DNA from: Microbacterium sp. 10M-3C3
Lineage (GTDB): Bacteria; Actinomycetota; Actinomycetes; Actinomycetales; Microbacteriaceae
DNA length: 64,000 nt
Assembly (NCBI RefSeq): GCF_003931875.1
Contig: NZ_CP034245.1
Span: 2,852,001 to 2,916,000 of the forward strand
Reading direction: 5' to 3'
The notes beneath the pieces are model-generated. The model worked only from the letters and a program-made list of their open reading frames with translations, searched no databases and was not told the origin of the DNA. This document shows positions 27,313-30,611 of the stretch, one piece after another; within the stretch, counting starts at the first letter, position 1, and each line of letters opens with the position of its first letter. The translations under genes and the position numbers were made by a program.

Positions 27313-28329
27313 TCAGCGACGCGGCGGCGGGGCCACCGTGCCGTGGGACAGATAGGTCGGCGGGATGAGATGCACGGCCGGGTCGAGCCGGCGATCCTCC
27401 ACGGCCTTCACGGCGAGCTCGATCGCGAGGTCGCACGAGGCCTGCGGGATGAGAGGGATCGTGTCGACGGCGACCGCCTGCGCCGCGGTGTCGAAGGAGG
27501 CGCCGACGGCGACCACCGACACGTCACCGGGGATGTCGTGCCCGCCGCGGGCGACCTCCTCGAGCACCGCCTCGTGGGCGTCGGCGGCGCAGTGCAGGAC
27601 GAGCGCGGTGGCACCGTCGGCGAGCAGCTCGCGCACGGCGCGCCGCGCGGCTGCCAGCTCGGTGAGCGTCACGCCGGTCGTGCGGAACGCCCACTCGACG
27701 TCGCGCTCGGCGGCGCGCTCGCCCACGGCGGCCCGCACGCGCGGCGGGAAGTTCGACTTCTCGTACGCGATGTCGGTCTGGCCGACGAGCCCGATGCGAC
27801 GGTGCCCGACGTCGACGAGTGCGTCGACCGCCATGCGTGCGGCGGCCTCGAAGTCGAGGTCCACGCACGTCAGGCCTTCGTGGTCGTCGGGGATGCCGAT
27901 GAACACCGTGGGCGTCGCGATCGCCCGCGCGAGCGGCACGCGGTCGTCGTCGGGCGCGACGTCGAGCACGACGATGCCGTCGACGAGGCCCGTCGCGGCG
28001 ACGCGGCTCATCCCCTCGCGCGCCTGCTCCTCGGTCAGTAGGAGCACGTCGTACTCGTGGCGCCGCGCGGCGATCGCGGTCGCGAGCACGAAGGCCATGT
28101 GCGTCGGGGCGTGCGTATCGCTGCGCAGCGGCTCGGTGAGGGCGAAGATGTGGGTGCGGCTGCCGGCGAGCATCCGCGCCCCCGCGTTCGGGCTGTAGCC
28201 GAGCTCGTGCACCGCCCGCTCGACGCGCTCGCGCGTGCGCTGGGAGACCGGCCGCTTGCCGCTGAGCGCGTAGGACACCGTGCTGATCGAGACGCCGGCG
28301 GCCTCGGCCACCTCGTTGATCTTCACCAT
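27313..28329 (-). CDS. LacI-family transcriptional repressor
   Basis: 338 residues. The N-terminal helix-turn-helix and hinge (MVKINEVAEAAGVSISTVSYALSG, read as two parts, then YSPNAGARMLAGS) are classic LacI/GalR; the rest is a periplasmic-binding-protein-like sensor. It lies 133 bases upstream of the binding-protein gene on the same strand and has two operators on its own promoter, so it probably represses itself and the oligosaccharide operon. The inducer is likely a beta-glucosyl or xylosyl oligosaccharide. The ATG was chosen at MVKINEV; the upstream in-frame extension has no homology. Confidence 0.9.
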   Translation of the reverse strand: MVKINEVAEAAGVSISTVSYALSGKRPVSQRTRERVERAVHELGYSPNAGARMLAGSRTHIFALTEPLRSDTHAPTHMAFVLATAIAARRHEYDVLLLTEEQAREGMSRVAATGLVDGIVVLDVAPDDDRVPLARAIATPTVFIGIPDDHEGLTCVDLDFEAAARMAVDALVDVGHRRIGLVGQTDIAYEKSNFPPRVRAAVGERAAERDVEWAFRTTGVTLTELAAARRAVRELLADGATALVLHCAADAHEAVLEEVARGGHDIPGDVSVVAVGASFDTAAQAVAVDTIPLIPQASCDLAIELAVKAVEDRRLDPAVHLIPPTYLSHGTVAPPPRR

Positions 28330-28374
28330 GTCGGACTCCGTCGTCGTGTCTGCCGCCGTGAGCGGCGGGAATAT

Positions 28375-28398
28375 CGAAGCGCTTCGCGAAACGCTTCG
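28375..28398. promoter_or_regulatory. Tandem LacI operators on the repressor promoter
   Basis: CGAAGCGCTTCG (28375-28386, perfect palindrome) directly abuts CGAAACGCTTCG (28387-28398, one pair off perfect). They sit just downstream of the -10 of the repressor gene, covering the expected transcription start, which indicates autorepression. Confidence 0.75.
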
Positions 28399-28404
28399 AC
28401 GGAT

Positions 28405-28434
28405 ACGGTAGGCGACGCGGGGCGGCAGGCGCAA
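28405..28434 (-). promoter_or_regulatory. Promoter of the LacI-type gene
   Basis: Minus strand: -35 TTGCGC (28434-28429), 18-base spacer, -10 TACCGT (28410-28405). The tandem operators begin seven bases downstream. Confidence 0.55.
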
Positions 28435-28532: not shown

Positions 28533-28562
28533 TTGACGCGTGGAGACGCATTCGGTCATAAT
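28533..28562 (+). promoter_or_regulatory. Strong leaderless promoter of the Cys leader peptide
   Basis: -35 TTGACG (28533-28538), 18-base spacer, -10 CATAAT (28557-28562), then exactly six bases (CGCGAC) to the ATG at 28569. It is the clearest -35/-10 pair in the window, and the spacing predicts transcription from the first base of the start codon. Confidence 0.65.
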
Positions 28563-28568
28563 CGCGAC

Positions 28569-28667
28569 ATGACCGACAACGCGCGTTCTCTGTCCGCCTG
28601 GGAGGCGAACTGGACTGCCGGGATGATGATGCCCGGCCGCGTCGTGCTGTGTCGAATGTGTCGCTGA
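28569..28667 (+). CDS. Leaderless leader peptide ending CRMCR
   Basis: A 32-codon frame, MTDNARSLSAWEANWTAG then MMMPGRVVLCRMCR and TGA. It is too short for normal gene calling. The C-terminal LCRMCR with two Cys-Arg pairs resembles the Cys-containing leader peptides of other actinobacteria, where ribosome stalling at Cys codons under cysteine shortage controls downstream genes. The -10 box lies six bases before the ATG, so the ribosome loads directly on the 5' end. The 188 bases to the regulator at 28855 hold two hairpins (28738-28758, 28777-28793). The coding assignment is inference from motif, promoter and position. Confidence 0.6.
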   Translation: MTDNARSLSAWEANWTAGMMMPGRVVLCRMCR

Positions 28668-28737
28668 CACGGTGACCCCCGCCGGACGCCGCTCGCGCTT
28701 CTGAACGCCGAGCACGGTCGTCCCCGAGCGCATCGGA

Positions 28738-28793
28738 CTACGCGTCGATCAGGCGTAGCCGTGTGCCTCGTCTCCCGGGCCCCGCAGCGGCCC
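28738..28793 (+). promoter_or_regulatory. Candidate attenuator hairpins before winged-helix gene
   Basis: Two stems in the leader between the Cys peptide and the regulator: CTACGC (28738-28743) with GCGTAG (28753-28758), loop nine; and GGGCC (28777-28781) with GGCCC (28789-28793), loop seven. Neither is a textbook terminator. They could switch with ribosome position on the leader peptide. Confidence 0.35.
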
Positions 28794-28854
28794 TCGCGCA
28801 CATCTCCCGGATCCGCGCACTGCGCGCATCCCTTCCGCAAGGACACCCATCATC

Positions 28855-29583
28855 ATGTCGACCGCCGCCCTCCTCGACCGTCCCGCCCGCATCCGCCACC
28901 TCCGCGCCGTCCCCGACACCACGTCCGCTCCGGCTTCCGCTCCGGCCGCTCCCGCCCCCGCGCGCAGCCTCCCCGCCGGGACTGCTCCGCGCGGCTTCGC
29001 CCTGTACGTCGGCATCGACGAGGACAAGGCCGCCGCCGACGGCGTCTCGCTCCCCCAGCTCGTCGAGGCCCTGCGCCGCACGCTCGCCGAGCTCGCGCCC
29101 AGCGCGCAGACCCACGCGACCGTCGCGCTGGCTCCCGTCGGCGCCGGCGGCCGCGACGTCGATGTCGTGCGCCTCGCCCTCCACGAGCCCTCCGCCGTCG
29201 CGCGCACCAAGCCCGAGCCCGAGGAGGATGAGGATCGCGCTCCCGGGGGCGTCGTCGTCGACATCTCCCGTAAGCGCGTGCTGCTGGACGGCCAGTCGGC
29301 CGCCTTCACGTTCAAGGAGTTCGAGCTGCTGCAGTACCTCGTCCTGCGCGAGGGACGCACGATCGACCGCAGCGAGCTCGTCGCGTCGCTGTGGCAGGGC
29401 GCCGGCGAGGACGAGGCCCCGGGCGAGCGCACGATCGACGTTCACGTGCGCCGGCTGCGCGCGAAGCTCGGCGCGTACGAGGACATCGTGCGCACCGTCC
29501 GCGGCGTCGGCTATCGCTTCGACCGTCACGCCGACGTCGTCATCCGCTACGGCCACGGCACGCCCTCGCCCGACCGCTTCTGA
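28855..29583 (+). CDS. Winged-helix DNA-binding regulator without receiver domain
   Basis: 242 residues. The C-terminal third is an OmpR/PhoB-type winged helix: FTFKEFELLQYLVLREGRT, then ERTIDVHVRRLRAKLG and VRGVGYRFDRH. The N-terminal part has no receiver Asp pocket; it has a Pro/Ala-rich stretch and a short alpha/beta segment (GFALYVGIDEDKAAADGVS) of unknown role. It is therefore not a standard response regulator and must be controlled another way, perhaps by level through the upstream leader. AAGGA lies 11 bases before the ATG. Confidence 0.8.
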   Translation: MSTAALLDRPARIRHLRAVPDTTSAPASAPAAPAPARSLPAGTAPRGFALYVGIDEDKAAADGVSLPQLVEALRRTLAELAPSAQTHATVALAPVGAGGRDVDVVRLALHEPSAVARTKPEPEEDEDRAPGGVVVDISRKRVLLDGQSAAFTFKEFELLQYLVLREGRTIDRSELVASLWQGAGEDEAPGERTIDVHVRRLRAKLGAYEDIVRTVRGVGYRFDRHADVVIRYGHGTPSPDRF

Positions 29584-29672: not shown

Positions 29673-30611
29673 GTGAGCCCGATCGTCGCCCCGCCGCGTC
29701 CGGTCGAGACGACGTACCGGCCGCGGCATGCCGTCGACGTCGCCCGGGCGGTGCTCGCGCAGCGGCACGGCGCCAACGACCCCGCGCTCACCGTGGCCAA
29801 CGGCGTCGTGTGGCGCGCGAGCCGCACGCCCGACGGCGTCGCGACGCTCGCGCTGCGCCCCACGGCCGACGGCTCGGTCCGGGTGGCCGCGTGGGGGCCC
29901 GGCGCGCGCTGGGCGCTCGGCCAGCTGCCGCGGCTGTGCGGCGCCGACGACGACCCCACGGGCTTCGACGCGTCGCTGCATCCGCTCGTCGCCGAGGCCC
30001 ACCACCGCCATCCCGGGCTGCGGATCGGACGCACCGACCTCGTCTTCGAGGCGGTCGCGAGCGCGATCATGGAGCAGAAGGTGACGGGGCTGCAGGCGTT
30101 CTCCGCGTGGCGGCGCCTGCTCACGTGGTTCGGCGAGCGCGCCCCCGGACCCACGCCGCGACCGATGTTCGCCCCGCCCGACATCGACGGCTGGCGCCGC
30201 ATCCCGTCGTGGTCGTGGCATCGCGCGGGACTCGAGCCGCCGCAGTCGCGCACGATCGTCGAGGCCGCGCGACGGGGCGCGTCGCTCGTCGCGGCTGCCG
30301 AGGCCGCGGTCGACGGCGACGCGCGCGATCGCGTCTTCACGAGCATCCGCGGCATCGGCGTGTGGACGAGCGCCGAAGCGCGCATCCGCGCGTTCGGCGA
30401 CCCCGACGCGGTGAGTGTCGGCGACTACCACCTCGCCCACCAGGTCGGATACGCGCTCACCGGCTCGCGGGTCGACGACGACGGCATGCTCGAGCTCCTG
30501 GAGCCGTGGCTCGGGCACCGGCAGCGCGCCATCCGGTACATCCTCGCCGCGGGCGTGTTCGAACCGCGTCGCGGTCCGCGCGTGCACCCCGAGGATCACC
30601 GCGACCGTTGA
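29673..30611 (+). CDS. DNA-3-methyladenine glycosylase, AlkA-like
   Basis: 312 residues. HhH-GPD superfamily DNA glycosylase that removes alkylated bases. LVFEAVASAIMEQKVTGLQ is the AlkA-type core helix; the helix-hairpin-helix is IRGIGVWTSAEARI, and catalytic Asp251 is in SVGDYHLAH. The N-terminal half resembles the AlkA N-domain. No iron-sulfur Cys cluster is present, as expected for this branch. Start GTG by leaderless box. Confidence 0.85.
   Translation: MSPIVAPPRPVETTYRPRHAVDVARAVLAQRHGANDPALTVANGVVWRASRTPDGVATLALRPTADGSVRVAAWGPGARWALGQLPRLCGADDDPTGFDASLHPLVAEAHHRHPGLRIGRTDLVFEAVASAIMEQKVTGLQAFSAWRRLLTWFGERAPGPTPRPMFAPPDIDGWRRIPSWSWHRAGLEPPQSRTIVEAARRGASLVAAAEAAVDGDARDRVFTSIRGIGVWTSAEARIRAFGDPDAVSVGDYHLAHQVGYALTGSRVDDDGMLELLEPWLGHRQRAIRYILAAGVFEPRRGPRVHPEDHRDR

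Follow-up and report, generated by a model that had tools for sequence, protein, structure and literature searches.

The window analysed here is a 64,000-nucleotide stretch of the genome of Microbacterium sp. 10M-3C3, in which a short open reading frame of 32 codons plus stop (28569..28667, forward strand; ATG at 28569, TGA at 28665-28667), encoding the peptide MTDNARSLSAWEANWTAGMMMPGRVVLCRMCR, is followed after a spacer of 187 bases by the ATG (28855) of a gene for a winged-helix regulator. A promoter can be read in front of the short frame at 28533..28562 on the same strand, with TTGACG as the -35 element (28533-28538), an 18-base spacer and CATAAT as the -10 element (28557-28562), the latter lying six bases from the ATG. 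By this geometry the leader would be leaderless. The initial annotation had proposed both the 32-codon frame and a promoter that places the transcript start on its ATG; frame and geometry can indeed be read in the window, and both recur in its relatives.

The regulator (28855..29583, forward strand) is 242 residues long, of which 147-222 form an OmpR/PhoB-type DNA-binding domain (PF00486, E 9.7e-21, 74.1 bits for a cut-off of 26.2), which is its only Pfam match. The phospho-receiver model PF00072 found no match in it at 1e-3, in agreement with the earlier description of an OmpR-type DNA-binding protein devoid of a receiver. The N-terminal region is conserved and matches no receiver model. In a profile search the best solved relatives were 8hml (E 1.4e-21) and 8hig (E 3.7e-21), both of which we take to be GlnR, and the similarity covered the DNA-binding part only; among the matches listed (120 of 4649 relatives) the source names were winged helix-turn-helix protein, transcriptional regulator or OmpR/PhoB-type. 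The AlphaFold model of the regulator (mean pLDDT 67, pTM 0.43) is too weak to bear on the question of a receiver. The genes neighbouring the regulator vary between genera. In the window, a LacI-family gene (27313-28329, reverse strand) lies divergently next to a minus-strand set of transporter genes, with an operator-like stretch, GAAGCGCTTCGCGAAACGCTTCGA, near its start (about 28370-28405), and a 312-residue protein encoded downstream of the regulator (29673-30611, forward strand) matched neither Pfam nor NCBIfam models at 1e-3. A copy that is 81% identical (P0073) has been deposited as a Coraliomargarita plasmid; this 3.15 Mb record may in fact be a Microbacterium chromosome from a mixed culture.

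A scan of named genomes through the regulator gene, by which the presence of the regulator is given by construction, retrieved 80 related loci, most of them named Microbacterium. A homologous leader was found at all 78 loci with upstream DNA (L039 and L075 have none), the leaders being picked by a C/R-C-R-M-C/R end with an in-frame stop, and the typical sequence among relatives is MTDNARSLSAWEANGTAGMMMAGRVVMCCRMC[RH]. When the order was sampled evenly, all 23 genomes of family f1, presumably Microbacteriaceae, and all 23 of family f6, presumably Micrococcaceae, proved to have the regulator. Where f1 genomes had upstream DNA, the leader could be read in all 22 of them (the window, L089-L097 and L129-L140); G139, which is cut by its contig, is left out of this count, and L141, likewise cut, was left out too. 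CGAATG was required when the leaders of L089-L097 and L129-L140 were picked; zero f1 loci with upstream DNA were lost through the end-pattern conditions. The initial annotation had made its case depend on conservation of the short frame before orthologues of the regulator, and the frame is thus kept throughout these sets. In f6 the same regulator is preceded, in 15 of the 23 genomes, by a diverged leader that presumably starts on GTG and ends, for example, on CCRM[HQ]A, L146 being a weak case; the search found no leader in the other eight (L098-L102, L107, L108 and L113), which could hold leaders failing its conditions. No such leader end was found at 13 more distant loci (L116-L128). Because close relatives are frequent among the loci and some species occur more than once, these counts are not independent.

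The promoter is conserved together with the frame: TTGAC-N18-20-ATAAT with six or seven bases before the ATG occurs in 83 of 100 f1 leaders, and the remaining 17 have TTGAC with a diverged -10. Since the ORF lengths in this set are multiples of three by construction, a frame-free test served as control. Starting from the promoter-anchored ATG, the next CGAATG was in frame in 71/71 cases, at 84, 87 or 90 bases, which indicates that length changes preserve the frame.

Conservation is strictest at the leader end, the core of which reads TGT CGA ATG TGT in the window (28650..28661, forward strand). The hexamer CGAATG (28653-28658) is found in every leader compared, that is in 97/97 of one set (88 f1 and 9 f6) and in 100/100 of the f1 set. 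Most relatives end on Met-Cys-Cys-Arg(CGA)-Met-Cys, and the window copy on Leu-Cys-Arg(CGA)-Met-Cys. In the last eight codons, 94 of the 100 leaders have three Cys (mostly MCCRMC[RH]), four have two, L091 has one and one leader has four; by comparison, a single Cys codon was counted in the 600 nt of regulator coding sequence taken from each of the 78 loci. The window copy, with two Cys in this stretch and no adjacent Cys codons, is therefore atypical. Fewer Cys are also seen in L048, L091, L106 and L146, and the adjacent terminal pair, present in most of the 97 leaders, is missing in the window, L048, L091 and L106 among others. Arg(CGA)-Met is retained in leaders that lost Cys. As for the C-terminal CR..CR, the conservation of which the initial annotation proposed as a check, the terminal Cys codons are kept, but CGA-ATG is conserved more strictly than they are.

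The leader is also constrained at the level of single letters. In a set of 49 leaders (those not 102 nt long, or identical, were dropped), crude counting gave a pS of 0.114 and a pN of 0.168, the corresponding values for 48 regulator codons from the same loci being 0.317 and 0.020, so that silent sites change 2.8 times less in the leader, and GC3 is 0.75 in the leader versus 0.94 in the regulator. The lower pS taken together with the lower GC3 indicates that silent sites are constrained beyond codon use. This constraint, the stricter conservation of CGA-ATG and the Cys-poor copies all count against a reading by Cys codons alone. Over the whole leader the crude pN/pS is 1.5, and for codons 27-33 it is 0.5. 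The Arg codon of the leader end is CGA in 49/49, although CGA makes up 2.2% of the Arg codons in regulator genes (32/1472), and at the two adjacent Cys positions 43 and 48 of the 49 leaders have TGT, whereas all six Cys codons of background genes are TGC.

Three stems can be drawn in the 187-base spacer, for which 188 bases and two hairpins had initially been described. Two were recognized by eye, namely CTACGC-GTCGATCAG-GCGTAG (28738..28758, forward strand), with CGCGTCGATCACGCG in many relatives, and H1, GGGCC-CCGCAGC-GGCCC (28777..28793, forward strand). The third, H2 (28809..28831, forward strand; in the window GGATCCGCGC-ACT-GCGCGCATCC, drawn by eye), precedes the ribosome-binding site AAGGA of the regulator (28839..28843, forward strand) without overlapping it, and is backed by compensatory changes. 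In an alignment of 56 rows, from which distant or near-identical loci were dropped and in which AGGA is invariant, two-sided changes occur at six of the six pairs of H2, amounting to 15 cells versus 2.6 +/- 1.4 in shuffles. As many as 87.3% of the cells are paired and slid versions are all lower, even though the innermost pair fails to form in 21 rows. Of the three stems, H2 is the one whose conservation the alignment bears out. An explicit fold hiding the ribosome site did not emerge. In an alignment of 34 loci, the motif TCTGAAC (28700..28706, forward strand), about 33 nt past the leader stop, is kept in many relatives; GAAC recurs in relatives' leaders and in H2, and TCTGAAC may compete for GUUC.

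The leader end and the spacer may pair over a long range. In f6, the spacer carries GCATTCGA or a variant complementary to the leader end, followed by a GCCG..CGGC hairpin and the ribosome site, and the variants in L105, L145 and L146 are still complementary. In this comparison, in which L114 and L115 were unparsed, 12 of 13 loci have their longest exact match between leader end and spacer (7-8 nt) at the leader core, L112 having a longer one elsewhere, and the complementarity reaches 5% or better against spacer shuffles in 11 of 13. Pairing is therefore likely in f6. In f1 it is suggestive. The candidate partner B (28797..28806, forward strand) is placed like GCATTCGA of f6 and is weak in the window; over 58 loci, filtered as for H2, complementarity of the leader core to the B region is raised by 0.75 nt (se 0.18), as compared with -0.09 to +0.28 for seven other leader windows, and the rest of the spacer is depleted in complementarity to the core (-0.92, se 0.12). 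Calculated duplex energies of the f1 leader end with B were not better than in shuffles (rank 0.05 or below in 3/79), and partner swaps between loci carried no significant cost within either family (0.122 and 0.395; 57 loci, filtered likewise), the two families together giving 0.035. The long complement is missing in L036, L040, L043 and L046 among others, and the pairing register differs between families. These points weigh against the proposed pairing. The spacer contains more C than G in 79/79 loci; the 120 bases past the stop are mildly C-rich in the window, where 9.9% of stretches reach that value, the mean over loci being 1.1%. Rho involvement is possible.

We favour, with a probability of roughly 0.65, the view that the element is a translated, leaderless and ribosome-dependent attenuator of the regulator gene. 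Transcription would start on the leader ATG and the ribosome would load at the 5' end, so that its progress over the last codons would decide whether the leader end stays covered. Once free, the leader end could pair with the segment that adjoins H2 and the regulator's ribosome site; in addition or instead, the free state could open the C-rich RNA past the stop to Rho. A slow or stalled ribosome would block the pairing or Rho and set the regulator at another, expectedly higher, level. Comparison between loci brings out the leader, its frame, the promoter geometry, the letter-level constraint, H2 and, in f6, a spacer complementary to the leader end. From these we infer a switch, together with its direction and its signal. 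If the attenuator indeed responds to cysteine, a cysteine-type leader with an invariant rare codon would govern a transcription factor rather than an enzyme in two actinobacterial families, and a receiver-less OmpR-type protein would gain an input. That cysteine supply sets the amount of the regulator, as the initial annotation proposed, now seems the likeliest special case of the attenuator. A more elaborate form of it, which we regard as tentative and rather doubtful in its full extent, is that the leader is dual-coded: the stall site, Cys-Cys-Arg(CGA)-Met with its rare codons, would be at the same time one strand of a long-range RNA switch. The position of the ribosome on this site would free or occupy the partner strand next to the hairpin at the ribosome site of the regulator, and cysteine supply, sensed through translation, would thereby set the dose of the regulator. 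Translation would then take the place of phosphorylation as input to an orphan protein resembling a response regulator, in a genus that also has a cysteine leader before cystathionine beta-synthase. A literature search, in which subscription papers were sparsely covered, found no description of such a leader in these bacteria.

The case for cysteine as the signal draws on a second leader in the same genome. At one of five PALP loci, a GTG-started frame encoding VQTCRCCR (L165:1501-1527, corresponding to G000:C1:2758050 onwards), with a -10-like hexamer (TATGCT) six bases upstream, lies 71 bases before the start of a gene whose product is a cystathionine beta-synthase (TIGR01137, 523 bits for a cut-off of 510). 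All three Cys codons of this frame are TGT; for Arg it uses CGT and CGC rather than CGA. A pattern scan of 39 genomes of the genus returned 18 places in 17 genomes, as compared with five for the reversed control. Fifteen of the 18 are V[LQ]TCRCCR-type leaders before a cystathionine beta-synthase-type gene, in 15 of the 39 genomes, the own genome included (L165 plus L158-L160, L162, L163 and L166-L174). Fourteen of these have Cys-Cys, L173 having CRCRR, and the stop comes three codons later in L159 and L174; because the scan demanded TGT codons, it cannot show a TGT preference. The other places, L161, L164 and L175, are not leaders of cystathionine beta-synthase genes. Searched with NCBIfam, seven of the fourteen other downstream proteins had TIGR01137 as best model, below its cut-off and over the first 320-327 of its 457 positions. 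Leaderless cysteine leaders thus exist in this genus, and the polycysteine leader in the same genome makes cysteine control by such leaders likely there. On its account our estimate for a cysteine signal at the regulator was raised from tentative to about even odds. Charged Cys-tRNA would be the likeliest signal at the regulator leader. The enzyme leader has no counterpart of CGA-ATG, and the regulator leader is long and conserved at the level of letters, which speaks for more than cysteine.

The metabolic background may bear on the source of cysteine. PF01507 (PAPS reductase family) found no match in the own genome and is present in all 14 control genomes; within the genus it occurs in 23 of 59 genomes (23/52 among the more complete ones) and is missing from 36, so that sulfate assimilation looks patchy in the genus. 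Its absence would fit cysteine obtained from methionine or by uptake. Upstream of PF01507 genes in six genomes, a search for ATG starts only found three Cys-rich frames, none of them placed directly before a large gene.

The main alternative to a Cys-tRNA signal is general slowing at the rare TGT-TGT-CGA run. In this reading, the leader would be a sensor based on the nascent peptide or on slow codons, in which TGT-TGT-CGA-ATG stalls the ribosome under general translation stress or in the presence of a small molecule or metal, not specifically when cysteine is low. The invariant use of CGA for Arg, the preference for TGT, which contrasts with the TGC of background genes, and the persistence of Arg(CGA)-Met where Cys is lost would all be expected of it. 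However, over most of the leader amino acids vary more than silent sites, which is unlike an arrest peptide, and TGT also suits cysteine leaders, as in the cystathionine beta-synthase leader all three Cys codons are TGT; we consider such a sensor unlikely. Amino acids less constrained than silent sites also argue against a trans-acting small protein, for example a metal binder. Although Met-Met-Met and Cys-Cys-Arg-Met-Cys could conceivably bind metal, f6 retains only the last residues and the Met codons coincide with a candidate hairpin loop, which makes this reading very improbable. As to a chance ORF without function, no point was found in its favour, and the conservation across loci and genomes already refutes it.

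The low synonymous divergence and low GC3 might alternatively mean that the letters are conserved mainly as a nucleic-acid element, either a structured RNA or an autoregulatory DNA operator, that happens to be readable as an ORF. A candidate hairpin, GCCGGG..CCCGGC with the Met-Met-Met codons as loop (28617..28637, forward strand; helix 49-54/64-69 of the 102-nt leader), would fit a structured RNA: in its GCCGG..CCGGC form, with the ATGATGATG run as loop, 87.4% of cells are paired and two-sided changes occur at three of six pairs. The candidate leader helices together show 15 two-sided cells versus 6.5 +/- 2.2 in shuffles. Yet slid versions reach 16 and 15, the outer helix P1 is mixed, with up to 23 of 49 rows unpaired at single pairs, and RNAalifold, which recovered neither candidate helix, gave no supported fold in the leader. 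An operator is suggested by an 11-base repeat at the leader end, TTGTCATGTG/TTGTCGAATG, and by GAC-spaced repeats in the promoter spacer, the spacing of which would suit OmpR-type proteins; against this, the promoter pattern of the window occurs once in its own genome, with no second copy within three mismatches. The frame, moreover, survives length changes in 71/71 cases. We regard a mainly nucleic-acid element as improbable, somewhat more so than the stall sensor, and continue to prefer the translated attenuator.

Related sequences elsewhere were also surveyed. A search of the own genome for further copies of the leader end gave 13 hits to TGYMGNATGTGY, as compared with nine for the reversed control. 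The exact pattern TGTTGTCGAATGYR, which misses variants including that of the window, was found at 28 places in 26 of 297 genomes of the order versus two places for the reversed control. Eighteen of these lie in f1 and f6, 16 of them before the regulator, one elsewhere (G207:C1:199024) and one unplaced (G139:C80); the other ten belong to other families. The leader promoters of several f6 loci (L104, L109-L111, L114, L115 and L142-L144) carry TTGTTACNTGC..CATTGTTAC repeats, a possible operator; the f6 repeats were found at one place each in 9 of 15 genomes, at the leader promoter, the reversed control giving five places.

Searches for known elements returned no assignment. Rfam had no match in the window at gathering score, and relaxing the threshold brought up sR45 (E 0.099) and mgtE (E 2.6) alone, both below their cut-offs; the NCBIfam leader-peptide models had no match up to E 10 for four leaders, and the plasmids and phages searched gave no match. 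The regulator shares the C-terminal winged-helix domain of OmpR/PhoB response regulators, but their N-terminal phospho-receiver was not found in it at 1e-3. Its DNA-binding domain, shared with 8hml and 8hig, presumably likens it to the GlnR-type orphan OmpR regulators, from which it differs in that its N-terminal part matches no receiver model. Within the genome, the closest parallel to the regulator leader is the VQTCRCCR leader. Both would be leaderless by geometry and both have terminal Cys and Arg codons, TGT and a TGA stop; they differ in length (8 versus 32 codons), the GTG start, the enzyme gene downstream and the absence of CGA-ATG from the shorter one, and no resemblance was noticed beyond the Cys-Arg end.

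Polycysteine leaderless short ORFs of mycobacteria were reportedly described by Canestrari et al. in 2020. These are leaderless short ORFs with Cys codons upstream of the gene they control, for which ribosome speed at the Cys codons is the proposed signal (PMC9031893, PMC9094748, PMC13236596). The window leader resembles them in being leaderless by promoter geometry and in having Cys codons upstream of a gene, but it has no contiguous Cys codons, and its downstream gene encodes a winged-helix regulator, not a protein of sulfur or cysteine metabolism. Since the window copy has no adjacent Cys codons and its target lies outside sulfur metabolism, we did not file the leader in the polycysteine family. 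More generally, the regulator leaders differ from the mycobacterial ones in the CGA-ATG of every leader, the letter-level conservation and the tested hairpin before the ribosome site. The whiB7-type leader governs how much of a transcription factor is made, as we propose for the present one, the target being a WhiB protein there and an OmpR-type protein here. Leader attenuation of the whiB7 type is itself named in one source (PMC13236596).
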